Source: an uncultured Alphaproteobacteria bacterium (lineage in GTDB: Bacteria; Pseudomonadota; Alphaproteobacteria; RUG11792). Taken from it: a DNA stretch of 47,813 nt. The stretch lies in contig CALXQI010000013.1 of the NCBI GenBank assembly GCA_944390585.1, forward strand, positions 1 to 47,813, written 5' to 3'. Shown one piece after another: positions 24,503 through 47,813 of the stretch. The translations under genes and the position numbers were made by a program. The notes under the pieces were generated by a model. It had not been told where the DNA came from, made no database searches, and was given only the letters and a program-made list of their open reading frames with translations. Each line of letters starts with the position of its first letter. Position 1 is the stretch's first letter.

Positions 24503-25765
24503 ATGTTACTTTCAAAGAGTTTAAAAATTGTTGGTGGAAAAAAACTACAAGGATCTATAAAAATAAGTGGAGCTAAGAATTTGGCACTACCAGCATTAAG
24601 CGCTGGAATTATGACATCTGAAAATATTACATTAAATAATGTTCCAAAACTAACGGATATTTCCTCAATGATTGATTTATTGCAATATTTGGGTAGTAAT
24701 ATTGAACACATTGATAATGTAGTACAAATTAGTACAAAAAATGTTGTAACAACTTGTGCTCCTTATGATTTTGTTAGCAAAATGAGAGCTTCAATTTTGG
24801 TACTTGGCCCGCTTGTTGCAAGATTTAAAAAGGCTAGAGTATCGCTACCTGGTGGATGTGCAATAGGTGTTAGAGGAGTTGATATGCACGTCAAGGCGCT
24901 TATTGATATGGGCGCAGATATTACGATAAGCGGTGGTGATATCGATGTTGTAGCAAAATATGGATTACACGGTACTGATGTAGTTTTTCCGTTTCCTACG
25001 TTTACAGGGACGGAAAACATAGTAATGGCAGCGTGTTTGGCAAAAGGGCGTACCGTGATTGTGAATGCTGCTGTAGAGCCAGAAGTTGAGCATTTGTGCT
25101 TATTGTTAAGATCTATGGGGGCGCAAATTGATGGTATTGGAACGTCTGTCTTGACAATTGATGGCGTTAATGATCTTGGCGGTTGTACGTTTGATATTAT
25201 TCCCGACAGGATTGAGGCTGGTACTTATGCTGTTGCTGCCGTTGTTACCCATGGTGATATTGTGTTGGAAGGAGCACGCCATGACCATTTAAGGGCTTTT
25301 TTGGAGTGTTTAAAGTGTGCTGGGGCAGATGTTTGTGATGTTGATACAGGTATACGTGTTGCTATGTCTGGAGATATATTGCCTATTGATATTGAGACTG
25401 CTCCATATCCTGGTTTTCCAACTGATTTGCAGGGACAGTTTATGGCCGCTATGTGTTTATGCAATGGTTCTTGTGTTATTAGAGAGTCTGTGTTTGAAAA
25501 TCGATTTATGCATGTGCAAGAGTTGTGCAGAATGGGCGCCAATATAAATGTTTCTGACAGGTGCGCACATATTGTTGGAGTTGATAAGTTAGTTGGTGCA
25601 CGCGTTATGGCTAGTGATTTGCGCGCTTCTGCGGCTCTTGTGCTTGCTGGTTTGTCAGCTGATGGGGTTAGCATTGTTGATAGGTTATACCATTTATATA
25701 GAGGGTATGAGGCTTTTTATGATAAGCTCGCTGGTGTTGGTGCTGATGTTGAGTTGATTTCATAG
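24503..25765 (+). CDS. murA: UDP-N-acetylglucosamine 1-carboxyvinyltransferase
   Basis: A 420-residue MurA catalysing the first committed step of peptidoglycan synthesis, transfer of enolpyruvate from PEP to UDP-GlcNAc. The catalytic Cys is C119 in SLPGGCAIGVRGVDMH, so fosfomycin sensitivity is expected at this residue. K25 in ISGAKNLALP is the conserved N-terminal Lys, and DRIEAGTY and PGFPTDLQGQFMA are family motifs. It diverges from tamA across the putative origin and its TAG stop overlaps the GTG start of tssF by one base, so the two are probably co-translated. Confidence 0.97.
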   Translation: MLLSKSLKIVGGKKLQGSIKISGAKNLALPALSAGIMTSENITLNNVPKLTDISSMIDLLQYLGSNIEHIDNVVQISTKNVVTTCAPYDFVSKMRASILVLGPLVARFKKARVSLPGGCAIGVRGVDMHVKALIDMGADITISGGDIDVVAKYGLHGTDVVFPFPTFTGTENIVMAACLAKGRTVIVNAAVEPEVEHLCLLLRSMGAQIDGIGTSVLTIDGVNDLGGCTFDIIPDRIEAGTYAVAAVVTHGDIVLEGARHDHLRAFLECLKCAGADVCDVDTGIRVAMSGDILPIDIETAPYPGFPTDLQGQFMAAMCLCNGSCVIRESVFENRFMHVQELCRMGANINVSDRCAHIVGVDKLVGARVMASDLRASAALVLAGLSADGVSIVDRLYHLYRGYEAFYDKLAGVGADVELIS

Positions 25766-27246
25766 TGGATGCTGATGTTTTTGCCTCTGAGTTGAGGCGT
25801 TTACGAGAATCTATGCTTCAGTTTGCCAGTGATTTTCCAGAAATAGGTAGTGCGTTGGGGCTTTCTTCTGGCGCTTCTGTTGACCCACAAACAGAGCGGT
25901 TACTTAATGCAATTGCTTTTATGTCCGCCGATTTGCGATGCTTTATAAGCGATAAAAGCCTGGATGTGCACAAGTTTGTGTTAAAAGGAATGTGTGGTGA
26001 CTTGCTTCGTCAATCTCCTGCTTGTTCTGTATTGCAGTTATGTGATTTGGGAGATGGGCATTTTCATGTTCCACGTGGAGCAGTTTTTCGTTGTGGTGAT
26101 GCAGTGTGTAGAAGTTTGTATGATGCTGATGTTTCCGGTTGTAGTATTGATTCTGTACATGTTTCTGGTGGTTGTTTGCGGTTTGTTTTACGTGGAAATT
26201 TTGATAGTGATCGCGTTATGTTCCACCTGTTTTGTAACGATGTTAGAAAATGCCTGAATTTGTACGCATCCATACGTGATGCCAATTTTGCGTTATGTGG
26301 TGGTGTAAGGCGCAATTTGCGATGGATGGGCTATGAGAGAGGAGATTCTATTGTTCCATTAATGGGGTATACGTGTTTGCCTTTGTTTTTGTTTAGAGAT
26401 TTTTGCTGCTTTTGGCAAAAGTTTATGTTCTTTTGTATTGATGGTGTTGAGAGCAAAGATGGCGTGGTTGATATTGCAATCCCGTGTGATGATGTTTTGT
26501 CTTCTAGCGATGTTTTTGATGGATGCGTGGTGGCAAATTGTATTTCAGTTACAAATACTTATGCTGAATTATCTGATCCTATCCGCGTGGATTGGATGTT
26601 GGAGAAGTTTTCTTTTGGTTGTGACTCTATATTGTGTTGTGAAAAAATGACTGCACAGGATGTTAATGGCGGTAATGAGCGTGTTGTGCAAAATTTTTTT
26701 GATTGTCGCGATGGTGTTGGGCGTGATTTAGTTTTTATGGAGAGCGGTGTTAATGATGATTTTTTCATTTTAGGAGAACGAACAGATGATTGCATTTTGT
26801 ATGGTGATTTAGTCCGCATGTCATTACCATGCATGGATATTGCCATTGGTTCTTTTTTTGATGCTGATGTTTTAGAGTTGGGGGGCGGATGTGCAAAATC
26901 TTTGTATTTATTTGAAAAAGTTGACTTCTCTTGTGATATGTTGCTGTTGCTGCGTTTGTGTTGCTTGTTGCGATGTGGTGTTGATATAGGTGTGCTTTTG
27001 CACGCATTATCTGATGCTTTTGGCAATAAGCGCGTAACATCATGTATTGATTGTTTAACTGTTGCTGATGTTACTCGTAGATCTGCTCGTGTTGGATTGC
27101 CAGCGCGTTTTGTTGAAGTTGAGGAGATTTCTTTGGATGTTAGGCATGGTAGTGATGATTTTGTGCCGCTGTTTTGCTCTGTTTTGTCTCGTTTTTTACT
27201 ACTAAATGGAGATATTAATACTTTGGTTCGTGTAAATACTAGATAA
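25765..27246 (+). CDS. tssF: Type VI secretion baseplate subunit TssF
   Basis: A 493-residue TssF (VasA/ImpG family), a component of the T6SS baseplate wedge with TssG, TssE and TssK. The first 90 residues carry the family signature: LRRLRESMLQFASDFPEI, then GLSSGASVDPQTERLLNAIAF, then LRCFISD and LLRQSPACSVLQL, matching the usual FxxxFP...DPxxERLLxAxAFL pattern. The rest is divergent and very rich in Cys, Val, Asp and Gly, reflecting strong G/T bias of the coding strand. It is shorter than typical TssF (about 580-620). The start is GTG overlapping the murA stop. tssG, the normal next gene, is absent; tssA is convergent with zero spacing. Confidence 0.82.
   Translation: MDADVFASELRRLRESMLQFASDFPEIGSALGLSSGASVDPQTERLLNAIAFMSADLRCFISDKSLDVHKFVLKGMCGDLLRQSPACSVLQLCDLGDGHFHVPRGAVFRCGDAVCRSLYDADVSGCSIDSVHVSGGCLRFVLRGNFDSDRVMFHLFCNDVRKCLNLYASIRDANFALCGGVRRNLRWMGYERGDSIVPLMGYTCLPLFLFRDFCCFWQKFMFFCIDGVESKDGVVDIAIPCDDVLSSSDVFDGCVVANCISVTNTYAELSDPIRVDWMLEKFSFGCDSILCCEKMTAQDVNGGNERVVQNFFDCRDGVGRDLVFMESGVNDDFFILGERTDDCILYGDLVRMSLPCMDIAIGSFFDADVLELGGGCAKSLYLFEKVDFSCDMLLLLRLCCLLRCGVDIGVLLHALSDAFGNKRVTSCIDCLTVADVTRRSARVGLPARFVEVEEISLDVRHGSDDFVPLFCSVLSRFLLLNGDINTLVRVNTR
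26067..26082. promoter_or_regulatory. Second parS-like site inside tssF
   Basis: TGTTCCACGTGGAGCA differs at one position from the palindrome TGTTCCACGTGGAACA. It is intragenic, as parS sites often are, and lies 3.5 kb from the site beside rsmG and 1.6 kb from the putative origin. Confidence 0.5.
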
Positions 27247-28257
27247 TTATTGTGATAACAAGAATTTGAGCAATTTGTTGGACTCTGTATTTGATGTGTG
27301 CATGTCATCTATTATTTGGTACAGCGTTTTATCTTTCCAGGACACCAACAAATCAAGTATGTATGGTGTTGGGCTGTGTTTTTCTATCTTTTTTAATTGT
27401 GTGGCAAGTTTACCTAATTCTGAATACACAGCATCTCTGTCATTAATTTCCTCCTCTTCTTGTACTACTTGAAGTTCTCCGGATATTGTTTCTTCTTTTG
27501 TACGAAATGTATTTATTATATTAATAATTTTGGATATTGTGTTTGTACATTTAGAAAATGAAATTGTATTATTGTATGATTGATTTATAATATCTGAAGC
27601 AGCAGCGATAGCTTGATTTGTATACTGCAGAATACTAAGTACATCACTCATATTTGTTGAGGATTTTATTGCATTTTGTATTTTTTCTTGTTCTGGCCTT
27701 CCTTCGTTATTAAACACATCCATAATGCTTTTTTCTGATTCTGGGTCTTGCTTAATTTTGATTTTTATATCTCCTGCATATTCGTAATCATATAATGTAA
27801 AAGCATCTACTATTGGAGTTAATGACAGTTTTGTAGTTATATTGTCTATTAATTTATTCAATATATGTTGCTTTTGTTCGTCATCTGATGCTCCATCATC
27901 TGTATGAGGAAAGCAAGATAGAGCAAATGATTGTGCAAATTTATCTAATATTTGAAACGATTTTAATGCGCCATTAAATCCATCCATGTTAACAAGTGAC
28001 TCCATTAGCCATGATACTGCAAGCAAATCTTTGGACTTATTCTTTAATACATCTACTGTTAGTGATTCAACAAGCGGCCAGTTTGCTTTTTTTAAATCTC
28101 GCTCCCAGATACCCATTGATAATTGTGGATCTTCGGCGATGCGAGCTGACCTGATTTCGTCGTATTCATTGCTAAGAGATTCATCTTTACCAACGCCGTC
28201 TTGTGATCCTGGAATCGGTGTCATAAGATCATCTATCTCGTATGTTATACGTTCCAT
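27247..28257 (-). CDS. tssA: Type VI secretion protein TssA
   Basis: A 336-residue TssA (ImpA_N family), which primes baseplate and sheath assembly. The ImpA_N domain spans about residues 10-130. It contains LMTPIPGSQDGVGKD, then NEYDEIRSAR (family pattern LxxPIxGxxPxGxDLxYDPxYxxIxxAR), NWPLVESLTVDVLKNKSKDLLAVSWLMESLVNMDGF, and FPHTDDGASDD. A helical middle is followed by the C-terminal HSPTPYILDLLVSW segment conserved in one TssA class. The ATG at 28257 is chosen because it opens this domain. Its stop codon abuts the tssF stop. No other tss gene is present, so the system must be dispersed in the genome. Confidence 0.85.
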   Translation of the reverse strand: MERITYEIDDLMTPIPGSQDGVGKDESLSNEYDEIRSARIAEDPQLSMGIWERDLKKANWPLVESLTVDVLKNKSKDLLAVSWLMESLVNMDGFNGALKSFQILDKFAQSFALSCFPHTDDGASDDEQKQHILNKLIDNITTKLSLTPIVDAFTLYDYEYAGDIKIKIKQDPESEKSIMDVFNNEGRPEQEKIQNAIKSSTNMSDVLSILQYTNQAIAAASDIINQSYNNTISFSKCTNTISKIINIINTFRTKEETISGELQVVQEEEEINDRDAVYSELGKLATQLKKIEKHSPTPYILDLLVSWKDKTLYQIIDDMHTSNTESNKLLKFLLSQ

Positions 28258-28378
28258 TGTTTTATGGCAAAAAACAATATATATAGTACAACATTTGTAC
28301 AAAAATTACTTGTATGAAATGACGCGTAATTGTAATAGATGTAAGTATTGTAACAATATTTTGGCTTCTTGCCTTAGT

Positions 28379-30257: not shown

Positions 30258-30412
30258 CCGTGTAAAACATAAAATTTTATTTGTTGCAAAGATAAAAATC
30301 AGCTATCATGAGAATTATGAGTAATAATTCAACCTATAGTGCGTATTTTCCACATAACTGCGCATTTGTGTTGCATATAATTACTGCCAGGAAGTTTTGT
30401 TTTGGAGGTAGA

Positions 30413-31303
30413 ATGCTAAAGATAGGTGATATAAATAAGATAGGAGCAAAGCCGCTTATTGGTGTGTGTGAAGCATTATGTGATATAGCGGATGTTTCTT
30501 GTGTTATTAAAGATAAAAAACTAGATAACGTATACGCAAGTAGGTTTTATTGTCAAAATATTGATAGTGCATTAAATGATTCTATTGTAGATGGTGTATC
30601 TTCTAGAATTTTAATTGGGGACTTTGTTGTATATGTTGCTTACTGTATAGATTTTTACCTTTGTGTTGTTATATATCAACGCTCAAAGCATCTTGAGCAA
30701 CAGCTGTACCACGATTTACAGGAGCCACTTAGGTGTATAGCAAACTGTCTTCAGATTATTAATTTTTTGAGTGACGTTTCTAGTGATGCGATGAAATATG
30801 TAGAGTATTCATTAGAAAGTGTTATGCGTTTAAAAAATTGGAGCAATTCTCTGCTTGGACACAAAGTTGGAAATTTTGCTGATAGATCTTCATTTTATAT
30901 ACAAGATGTATTGGAGGATATTAAGCGGATGATTTTTTATAAAATAGATGAAAGAGGATGTTGTTTTGATATTGATGATTTACCAAAGATTTGCGCTGTT
31001 AGATCGGATATTGTATGTATTTTTAAAAATTTGATAGAAAACTCTTTATTATATGCAAAAACAGAAGATAATCTTGTTGTTTTTATAAAAAAAGATTTTG
31101 CTAAAACAACACAAAGCGAGCTTGTTGTGACATATTATGACAATGGTAAGACATGCCAAGTTGCTGATAGAAAAAATAGCGATAATCTTGGATTAAAACT
31201 TTGTAGGGAGCTTGCTATTGCTAATGGCGCTACTTTTGAGCAAAAGCCAGGATTTGAATTTGAGATGGTGTTTTTTCGTGATGGAGTAAATTATGCAAAG
31301 TGA
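30413..31303 (+). CDS. Soluble sensor histidine kinase
   Basis: A 296-residue kinase. The N-terminal 95 residues are a small sensory domain without clear membrane helices. The dimerisation/phosphoacceptor helix carries YHDLQEPLR with H100, in the HDLQEPLR form common in bacteriophytochrome-type kinases. The ATPase domain has an N-box around FKNLIEN (N206-N210), a DNG motif at 243-245, and a degenerate glycine-rich lid NLGLKLCRELAIANG. The ATG at 30413 has a GGAGG site four bases ahead; an in-frame ATG at 30308 would add 35 residues. It overlaps the next gene by 11 bases, so the two form a cytosolic phosphorelay pair. The signal sensed is unknown. Confidence 0.82.
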   Translation: MLKIGDINKIGAKPLIGVCEALCDIADVSCVIKDKKLDNVYASRFYCQNIDSALNDSIVDGVSSRILIGDFVVYVAYCIDFYLCVVIYQRSKHLEQQLYHDLQEPLRCIANCLQIINFLSDVSSDAMKYVEYSLESVMRLKNWSNSLLGHKVGNFADRSSFYIQDVLEDIKRMIFYKIDERGCCFDIDDLPKICAVRSDIVCIFKNLIENSLLYAKTEDNLVVFIKKDFAKTTQSELVVTYYDNGKTCQVADRKNSDNLGLKLCRELAIANGATFEQKPGFEFEMVFFRDGVNYAK

Positions 31304-32018
31304 ACAAGGTTTTACAATTGATGATATAGATGTATGCATTAGTAAGAATCTCAGAGAAAAGAGAAAAAAGAGAGATTTGACGCTTGTAGAGGTTGCAAAA
31401 AGGGTTGGTGTTTCGCATCAGCAGGTTCAAAAGTATGAGCATGGAACCAGCAAAATCTCCGCATCAATGTTATATAAATTTTCTCTTGTATATGGGGTTG
31501 ATATTTGTCATTTTTTTGATGGCTTTGAGCAAAGCGTTATAGAAAAGCAAAATGGAGAATTCTTAACAGATATTAATAAAAATAGTACAATTAACATTTT
31601 GTTGGTAGAGGATAATCCTGGTGATGAAGTCATTACCAGGCGTGCATTATCAGATATGCATGGTGTAAATATTTTTTGCGTACACGATGTGGTACAGGCG
31701 TTGGATTTTTTACGTTATAAAACTATATCTGCAGATTTTAGAAGGCCTGATTTAATTTTGCTTGACGTTGGTTTGCCTGTAAAATCTGGTTTGGTGTTGT
31801 TAAAAGATATTAAACGAGACCGTGGTTTGATGGATATTCAGGTTGTAATGTTGACAAGCAATATTAGTATTTCTGTTTTAAACGAGTCATATAAAAACGG
31901 AGCTGCTGGGTATATATGCAAGTCATTTGATTTTAATGTTTTTAAAGCGAATTTGTGTGATTGTGTACAATATTGGCGTCATGCTGTTGTGATACCTAGA
32001 GGGTTGCATGGTGTATAG
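31293..32018 (+). CDS. XRE-type DNA-binding protein fused to a response-regulator receiver domain
   Basis: A 241-residue two-domain protein. Residues 15-75 form an XRE/Cro-like helix-turn-helix (LREKRKKRDLTLVEVAKRVGVSHQQVQKYEHG). Residues 100-225 form a complete CheY-like receiver: acidic pair E106/D107 in LLVEDNPGD, phospho-acceptor D158 in LLLDVGLP, T188 in VMLTSN and K210 in GYICKSF. The receiver resembles the Rcp1-type that pairs with HDLQEPLR kinases. Domain order is reversed relative to ordinary response regulators, with the DNA-binding part first. It overlaps the kinase gene, which is the obvious phosphodonor. Targets unknown; the inverted repeat at 30212 is a candidate site. Confidence 0.87.
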   Translation: MQSEQGFTIDDIDVCISKNLREKRKKRDLTLVEVAKRVGVSHQQVQKYEHGTSKISASMLYKFSLVYGVDICHFFDGFEQSVIEKQNGEFLTDINKNSTINILLVEDNPGDEVITRRALSDMHGVNIFCVHDVVQALDFLRYKTISADFRRPDLILLDVGLPVKSGLVLLKDIKRDRGLMDIQVVMLTSNISISVLNESYKNGAAGYICKSFDFNVFKANLCDCVQYWRHAVVIPRGLHGV

Positions 32019-33943: not shown

Positions 33944-34587
33944 ATGAAAAGTAATTTGTTATTGTTGCTTGCTGCTTGCTGCATTTTGGATGGTGTTGCG
34001 AGTGATGATAGGGGGGGGCTGATGTTAAACATGCTTTTAAAGGGGCATTAGAGGCTGTTGTGCAGGCGTTTTATTCTGTTTCCACGGCGGAAGGAGAAAG
34101 GATACAGTGTAGAGAAAGTAAAATTGAGCAGAATAGTAAAAAGGTTTTGAGTGAGGATTTTACCAAGTTGTACGATGCGTTAACCGATTTTTTACCTAAT
34201 GAAGATGGTGTGGAATTGTTGAATAATCCTAAAAAATATACAAGTAAGGAAGTGTGGGCTGTTAAGGTACGAATACATGGTTATGTTAAGGGAAGAGGAG
34301 GTTTTGACACAGTTGAAAATATTGGTATGTTGATGCATAGGTTTGCTGGGACGATGAGGACGTTATGCAAGGTGTATGGCGAAAAGAAGGATAAGGTTTG
34401 TGGTGAAGTTTTTGAAAAGGAGAGTGAATTGATAGAAAAGGTAAGGTGGTGGAGAAAATGTGGTGAGAGTTGGGCAGAAGTAGAGATGAATGAGAAAGGA
34501 GGAGACATTTTTGTCACGGGGTGTTGTATCGTCGTGTTTGGCATAGTTTTGGGAGAATATATGAGTGATTTTGTGTTGTTTGTGTGA
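33944..34587 (+). CDS. Secreted family protein with poly-G tract, out of frame as assembled
   Basis: The ATG at 33944, with an AAGGA site, encodes a signal peptide (LLLLLAACC core, cleavage near GVAS/DD). A run of eight G follows at 34011-34018. In this frame translation stops at 34049 after 35 codons. The long frame from 34060 to 34587 starts just after the tract, and its upstream extension joins the signal peptide only if the tract has nine (or six) G. The predicted in-frame product is about 214 residues. Its mature part is helical, with an FLPNEDGVELL segment, GYVKGRGGFDTVENIGMLM and a hydrophobic C-terminal segment (GCCIVVFGIVLG). It is clearly paralogous to the next gene. This fits a slipped-strand phase-variable gene caught OFF; a decayed pseudogene or homopolymer error is the alternative. 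Confidence 0.75.
34011..34018 (+). repeat. Poly-G tract, eight G
   Basis: Eight consecutive G, very unlikely by chance in DNA of this composition. The tract lies just after the signal peptide. Nine or six G would join signal peptide and mature frame. Confidence 0.9.
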
Positions 34588-34677
34588 TTACTAAGTTGGA
34601 TCATGTAAACACGATTGTATAGTGTTGTGTTTGTTTTGGTGAAATTTTAGAAATAAATATAATATATAAATATAATA

Positions 34678-34706
34678 TTGACATTGTTAATTTGTAATGA
34701 TAGTGT
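34678..34706 (+). promoter_or_regulatory. Promoter of the second poly-G family gene
   Basis: TTGACA (34678-34683), a 17-base spacer TTGTTAATTTGTAATGA, TAGTGT (34701-34706). The stretch from ATATTGACATT through TTAATTTGTA is nearly identical to the promoter in the terminal repeat, so the family shares an upstream cassette. Confidence 0.75.
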
Positions 34707-34741
34707 GAAATAGGGTTACGTATATTTTTAAAGGAATAATG

Positions 34742-35429
34742 ATGAAAAAGACTTTATTATTGTTAACTATTGTCTGTTGCGGGGGGGGGCATTGTAAGCG
34801 CAGCAAATGATGTAAAAGTAGATTGCATTGGTGAAATTAAGGATAGATTTAAGGAATTGTTAGAGTTTATTAAGCAGAAATTTCATGATCAGGCATTGTA
34901 TTATCGGAGAATGCTTAAGAGTGGATCTAGTAGTAACGAAAACACGTCAGGTATCGAGGAAAGAAAGGAAGTTTTTTTGCTGTCATGTGAAGAGTTAAAA
35001 GAAGAAATGGAAAGATTTTTACCTAGTGAGAAAGTTATTAGAGTGCTACAAAGGTTTGAAGAGCATGCGATAATGATGGATATACATAGAGGGATGGTTA
35101 GAAGAGGAGGGTTTGCTGCTATTGATAAGATTGCTGGGATGATGAAGAAACTAGGTGAAGACGCGATTGCGTTGAGCAAAACATATGGTACAAAAAATAT
35201 GAAAAAGTTGCTTGAAAGTGGTGTGGAGGAGGAGTTAAAGAGGTTGGGGGAGAGGTGGCTAACATGTGCTAAACTTTATGTAAAAGTGGAAAAAGCTAAC
35301 AAAAATGTGAGCAATTTTGTTTCTGGTGGGTGTTGGGGTGGTACATATATAAAGGATAGATTGGGTTTGATGCTTGCTTTCCCTGAACTTGTACGTGAGT
35401 TTAATATAGCGAAGGGTAGGAAGGGTTAA
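34742..35429 (+). CDS. Secreted family protein with poly-G tract, out of frame as assembled
   Basis: Tandem ATGs (34739, 34742) after AAAGGA start a signal peptide (KKTLLLLTIVCC) that runs into nine G at 34781-34789 and, in this frame, stops at 34808 after 22 codons. Removing one G (or adding two) continues it into GGGIVSAANDVKVD, with a good SAA cleavage site, and on to 35429: a secreted protein of about 228 residues. The mature part is helical and charged. Regions shared with the gene before it include FLPSEKVIRVL, RRGGFAAIDKIAGMM and a GER-W-K-Y-VKVE segment ending at VSGGCW. As with its neighbour, this is best explained as a phase-variable gene in the OFF state. Confidence 0.78.
34781..34789 (+). 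repeat. Poly-G tract, nine G
   Basis: Nine consecutive G inside the signal-peptide coding region. Eight or eleven G would restore the frame to the 35429 stop. This and the G8 tract are the only G or C runs of such length in the window. Confidence 0.92.
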
Positions 35430-47652: not shown

Positions 47653-47692
47653 ATAATGTGTAAAAAATAGTTTGATATATATAAAAATAATA

Positions 47693-47721
47693 TTGACATT
47701 ATTAATTTGTAGTGATACAAT
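47693..47721 (+). promoter_or_regulatory. Promoter of the right terminal family gene
   Basis: TTGACA (47693-47698), 17-base spacer, TACAAT (47716-47721): the mirror copy of the promoter at 121-93, about 30 bases before the ATG at 47752. Confidence 0.78.
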
Positions 47722-47751
47722 TTATTTGCGTATTATTCTTTGAGTAAAAAA

Positions 47752-47813
47752 ATGAAGAAAGTAGTTTCATTGTTAGTTGCTGTGTTGTGCTGTGGTATTA
47801 GTAGTGCTGCTGA
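47752..47813 (+). CDS. Secreted family protein, 5' fragment (runs off the right end)
   Basis: An ATG at 47752 starts a signal peptide (KKVVSLLVAVLCCG, then SSAA) that leaves the window after about 20 codons. It is base-for-base identical to the left-end fragment. Similarity to the signal peptides at 33944 and 34742 places it in the same family; here the CCG is followed by ISSAA with no poly-G tract. Confidence 0.7.
   Translation, partial: MKKVVSLLVAVLCCGISSAA

Follow-up and report, generated by a model that had tools for sequence, protein, structure and literature searches.

Comparison with described phase-variable systems

The Opa proteins of Neisseria are outer-membrane barrels, and their genes carry a pentamer repeat. 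In the opa genes these CTCTT repeats are situated in the region encoding the leader peptide (PMC3960869). The phase-variable genes of Campylobacter jejuni contain poly-G/C tracts of seven or more (PMC4965091). In Ehrlichia, a group of genes with poly(G-C) tracts was described, for which phase variation was proposed (PMC4885862; also PMC3167834). The Ehrlichia group is the closest known system by lineage, and the opa genes and the Campylobacter poly-G genes are the systems that appear to work alike. Among the papers searched, none combined Holosporales with phase variation.

The sequence analyzed here (the window, 47,813 nucleotides) is contig C13 of an uncultured α-proteobacterium, the genome of which comprises 876,557 bp in 16 contigs, named C2, C5 and so on. 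Two neighbouring genes of the window, A and B, each contain a G run. Like the opa genes, they belong to a dispersed multigene family in which each copy has its frame set independently by a repeat in the part encoding the signal peptide. Unlike in opa, the repeat is a mononucleotide G run and not CTCTT, and the mature part is not a β-barrel but was predicted to be all-helical and matched no known family. The likeness to the Ehrlichia group is one of description: in both cases a reduced host-bound α-proteobacterium carries G/C homopolymers in host-interaction genes, whereas here the tract is placed at one conserved signal-peptide codon and the lineage is different. Coding poly-G runs at many loci of a small genome are shared with C. 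jejuni, but in our case the gate lies at the signal peptide, in a set of small secreted paralogues having one common promoter cassette. The sequence-only reading had called the arrangement unusual for a reduced α-proteobacterium, which is only partly right, since the Ehrlichia tract group and its suggested phase variation were already noted (PMC4885862).

We consider it likely that poly-G SSR contingency loci (translational phase variation) control expression in the dispersed family of small secreted proteins to which genes A and B belong.

The two tract genes of the window

The G8 and G9 runs were both confirmed exactly, and the window contained no other G run of at least seven. G7 words occurred five times compared with a mean of 0.28 in shuffled sequences, and none of 100 shuffles reached five. 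As had been claimed, the signal-peptide frame of gene A (ATG at 33944) ends at a stop at 34049 and that of gene B (ATG at 34739 or 34742) at a stop at 34808, while long homologous frames stay open past these early stops (Table 1). The mature parts displayed 28% identity (E = 2e-8), so the two genes are indeed paralogues. The tracts had been placed at the junction of signal peptide and mature protein. More exactly, the run of gene A lies just past the likely cleavage site, and that of gene B falls within the signal-peptide c-region.

Both proteins are predicted from their N-termini to be secreted, the Sec signal peptide having been judged by eye, and they may be located at the surface. In the frames as sequenced, run length modulo 3 sets whether translation continues into the mature frame or ends at the nearby stop. 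Slipped-strand ON/OFF switching of both genes, as the frames suggest, would give four expression states from the one locus.

Table 1. Family features of the window (C13) and G runs of at least eight in the genome
Position	Strand	Feature	Basis or remark
C13:1-142	-	Promoter and signal-peptide cassette of family member MKKVVSLLVAVLCCGISSAAE, truncated by contig end	97% DNA identity to window 47671-47813
C13:930-1075	-	5' part of family member MMKIVLLLTSVLCCGVCSA.., without tract; in-frame stop about 35 codons in	
C13:33882-33910	+	Gene A family promoter: TTGACA, 17-nt spacer, TATCAG	Alignment with 12 other family 5' regions of the genome
C13:33944-34010	+	Start codon of gene A, followed by signal peptide MKSNLLLLLAACCILDGVAS-DD	Sequence and translation; signal peptide judged by eye
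C13:34011-34018	+	Gene A G8 tract, just after signal peptide	Just 3' of likely cleavage site
C13:34018-34587	+	Gene A mature frame, 189 codons open, out of register with signal peptide	No stop; coding-like codon usage in that frame only
C13:34678-34706	+	Gene B family promoter: TTGACA, 17-nt spacer, TAGTGT	Pattern search and alignment
C13:34739-34780	+	Start codons of gene B (ATGATG), followed by signal peptide MMKKTLLLLTIVCC	
C13:34781-34789	+	Gene B G9 tract, directly after M(M)KK[ST]LLLL..C signal peptide	Within signal-peptide coding region, at Gly codon position of tract-free sisters
C13:34782-35429	+	Mature frame of gene B (215 codons), not in register with signal peptide	Predicted all-helical
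C13:47671-47813	+	Same cassette as at 1-142, truncated at other contig end	97% identical to C2:24393-24529
C2:7600		G12, directly after M(M)KK[ST]LLLL..C signal peptide	
C10:55708		G9, directly after M(M)KK[ST]LLLL..C signal peptide	
C2:27178		G11, directly after M(M)KK[ST]LLLL..C signal peptide	In register into 165-codon frame
C2:26148		G9, about 30 codons into related gene	
C15:48090		G9, after like-styled signal peptide	3' of an in-frame TAG
C5:8590		G8, ribosome-binding position of secreted frame	
C7:52165		G8, within gene of another secreted family	

Frames were translated and folded as they stand, with the tract bases unaltered. AlphaFold, given a shallow alignment of six, modelled the mature part of gene B as all-helical (pLDDT 80). 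Foldseek returned nothing for it at E < 0.001, the top rows of VIA-align were STAT coiled coils with Z 9, which is under the level meaningful for helical bundles, and its matches to profiles of solved structures were weak and unconvincing. The switch-gene proteins had no match above the cut-off in Pfam or NCBIfam.

Both switch genes are located between pgpA and an inverted bamB. In the relatives, bamB directly precedes der in the same orientation, and those loci are without G runs of at least seven; the location in the window is therefore lineage-specific. The housekeeping genes of the window are intact. Just upstream of der (30308-32018), a gene for a histidine-kinase-like protein adjoins one in which, unusually, an HTH domain precedes a response-regulator receiver domain. 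At 25765-28302 the window contains genes similar to tssF (N-terminal profile part only) and tssA of type VI secretion, in a genome of 0.88 Mb.

A common 5' cassette in the family

Searching the genome with the protein of gene A or B identified further copies on C2, C10 and C12. Thirteen family 5' regions could be aligned, displaying a -35-like TTGAC or TTGAT, a spacer near 17 nt and a -10-like box, and most of them remained alignable through the leader and the signal peptide. A strict promoter pattern occurred four times in the genome, each time 5' of a tract gene, and was absent from the reversed control. The tract genes have in common this promoter, the leader and a signal peptide of the MKK-LLLL-CC type. 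In tract-free sisters, the codons following Cys-Cys encode Gly-Val/Ile-Ser-Ser-Ala, indicating that the G run occupies the place of a single Gly codon. The 5' DNA was 85-97% identical between some copies, and most mature proteins shared 25-38% identity. A search for related loci with the family alignment yielded no conserved stretch.

The two ends of the window are near-identical cassette copies in inverted orientation, with a further copy at C2:24393. Since both contig ends fall inside the family cassette, the assembly was likely broken there by the repeat.

G runs across the genome

Only nine G runs of at least eight, each on the coding strand, were detected in the whole genome. Figures for this genome come from sequence searches and from about 132 kb of its sequence. 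A third-order Markov model trained on the window predicts about two. Six runs of at least nine were found compared with about 0.4 expected, and two of at least 11 compared with about 0.02, so that the tracts in the 5' coding regions are longer than chance would give. Six of the nine, measuring 8, 9, 9, 9, 11 and 12 G, belong to recognisable family members and fall within the signal peptide or shortly behind it. The copies differ in register: the G11 copy at C2:27178 is in register and the other five are out.

In C5 (8590-8597), the G8 immediately precedes the start codon (ATG) of a secreted frame, where its length would alter spacing and not frame. Members of a second secreted family are clustered in C7 (L031:8444-11617), with N-termini like MNMLKMCVCVSVVCACAFGA and one member having a mid-gene G8.

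Slipped-strand mispairing in replication would lengthen or shorten the G runs at a high rate. MutS is present in the genome, so slippage would not be raised by MutS loss. The switching of the family genes would be reversible, and a clonal population may then consist of cells that differ in which family proteins they secrete; the tract-free copies would be constitutive. Such variation might serve host-cell specificity, evasion of recognition by the host or avoidance of phages.

Relatives in the GTDB family

A search of 58 other genomes detected no protein relatives of the gene A/B family, except for a marginal match in G008 (E = 0.008). Of 35 genomes in the GTDB family, 34 contained G runs of at least nine, some of these runs being contig-end artefacts or outside genes. 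Long poly-G at contig ends was seen in G013 (C8, C24 and C29) and G007 (C2, C10 and C27); it is probably a sequencer artefact and inflates tract counts. The number of runs of G10 or longer across the class was not decisive, as many larger genomes carry a few. The argument accordingly lies in the placement of the tracts and not in their number.

In other genera of the GTDB family, unrelated families of secreted proteins carry G runs within their signal peptides, again in mixed registers. In genome G002 about 11 paralogues are arranged as MFKKKCLF, Gn and LGLGSSIAIFASISSDVIA.. or near variants (LGLGSSIAIF.. is read after Gn). Five of these copies have n = 9 and are in register, six have n = 10, 11 or 17 and are out of register, and the mature frames of complete copies extend over 314-515 codons. 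Further poly-G signal-peptide cases were identified in G032, G029, G018, G004 and PG1894_113. G032 is apparently the goat-rumen MAG RGIG3458. Reciprocal best matches between sister species can differ in n and in register while the mature protein is kept over 321-492 codons with pN < pS; in one such pair, n = 9 (in register) and n = 10 (out of register), identity was 54% over 321 codons. Profile comparison by hhalign detected no relation between the mature families of our genome and G002 (probability 0.1%), so that one type of gate is fitted onto different proteins. The secreted family of this genus (g3) is very large, with 44 matching places in G002, 43 in G032, 34 in G019 and 22 in G029, in genomes of about 0.8-0.9 Mb (G002 about 0.9 Mb). 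By matching coordinates, two genomes of the GTDB family correspond to the public MAGs Cc175_bin12, labelled Holosporales, and PG1894_113; the former is presumably of termite origin.

Kept frames and alternative explanations

The out-of-register mature frames contained no stops in 165-241 codons, compared with 0.10 stops per codon in the other frames, and housekeeping-like codon usage was found in the mature frame only. Relaxed selection in these frames, which the sequence-only reading had named as a mark of fixed pseudogenes, was not observed so far as a strongly diverged family allows: diverged pairs displayed pN < pS, though near saturation and, at 25-36% identity of the mature sequences, with a divergence too great for firm dN/dS. 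Part of the family is nevertheless decaying. The sister at C2:23878 has five stops, that at C12:3702 has lost its 5' end and shows pN about equal to pS against its closest relative, that at C2:24480 is frameshifted without having a tract, and at C15:48090 the stop precedes the tract; the tract-free members at C10:54659 and C2:25404 are intact. The dead sisters at C2:23878 and C12:3702 do not resemble the out-of-register tract copies. Dead sisters, C2:24480 among them, together with five out of six signal-peptide tract copies being out of register, would agree with a lineage-specific secreted family in decay, in which the G runs are merely where frameshifts fell. We regard such fixed pseudogenes as unlikely, given the open and coding-like mature frames, the recurrence, far above chance, of 8-12 G runs at one codon position in an AT-rich genome, and a mixed-register pattern that is maintained across species of another genus.

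G runs are error-prone on every sequencing platform, and the contig-end poly-G of G013 and G007 resembles a sequencer artefact, so the true genes might all be in register and constitutive. A one-base error would shift the register but would not create long G runs at a single codon position across many paralogues, and the lengths vary widely among copies. The conserved single-copy genes of the window are full length, indicating that random indel error is low, and homopolymer error is thus a very improbable source of the pattern. Homopolymers can also cause transcriptional slippage. Polymerase or ribosome slippage on the G run could supply a little full-length protein from every copy in every cell, not heritably, and this would account for the conserved mature frames as well. 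Such recoding leaves unexplained the in-register copies with equally long runs and the spread of paralogue lengths over 6-17, and tract-free members occur alongside; we give it very little credence. Contingency loci are the best reading, since the G-run cassette recurs in paralogues (one in register, the rest out), the out-of-register frames are kept and related genera display mixed registers at the same codon. With the same arrangement in sister genes and in other genera, the locus looks like part of a genome-wide set of random on/off switches and not like two broken genes.

Implications

It is possible, and suggested here tentatively, that a whole family of reduced host-bound α-proteobacteria relies on a modular switch cassette, in which the promoter, leader and signal peptide, provided with a poly-G gate, are conserved and joined to unrelated, fast-diverging secreted proteins. 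The relatives include MAGs from insect-gut-type and rumen samples that are labelled Holosporales or Alphaproteobacteria. If so, each genome would deploy a combinatorial secretome, possibly in hosts without adaptive immunity such as gut protists, and switching would then be of use for host-cell specificity or against phages, not for escape from antibodies. Phase variation has mostly been studied in culturable vertebrate pathogens. A dense set of cassette-like G-run gates in reduced symbionts that are uncultured would show that secreted proteins become subject to bet-hedging even where genome reduction is strong.
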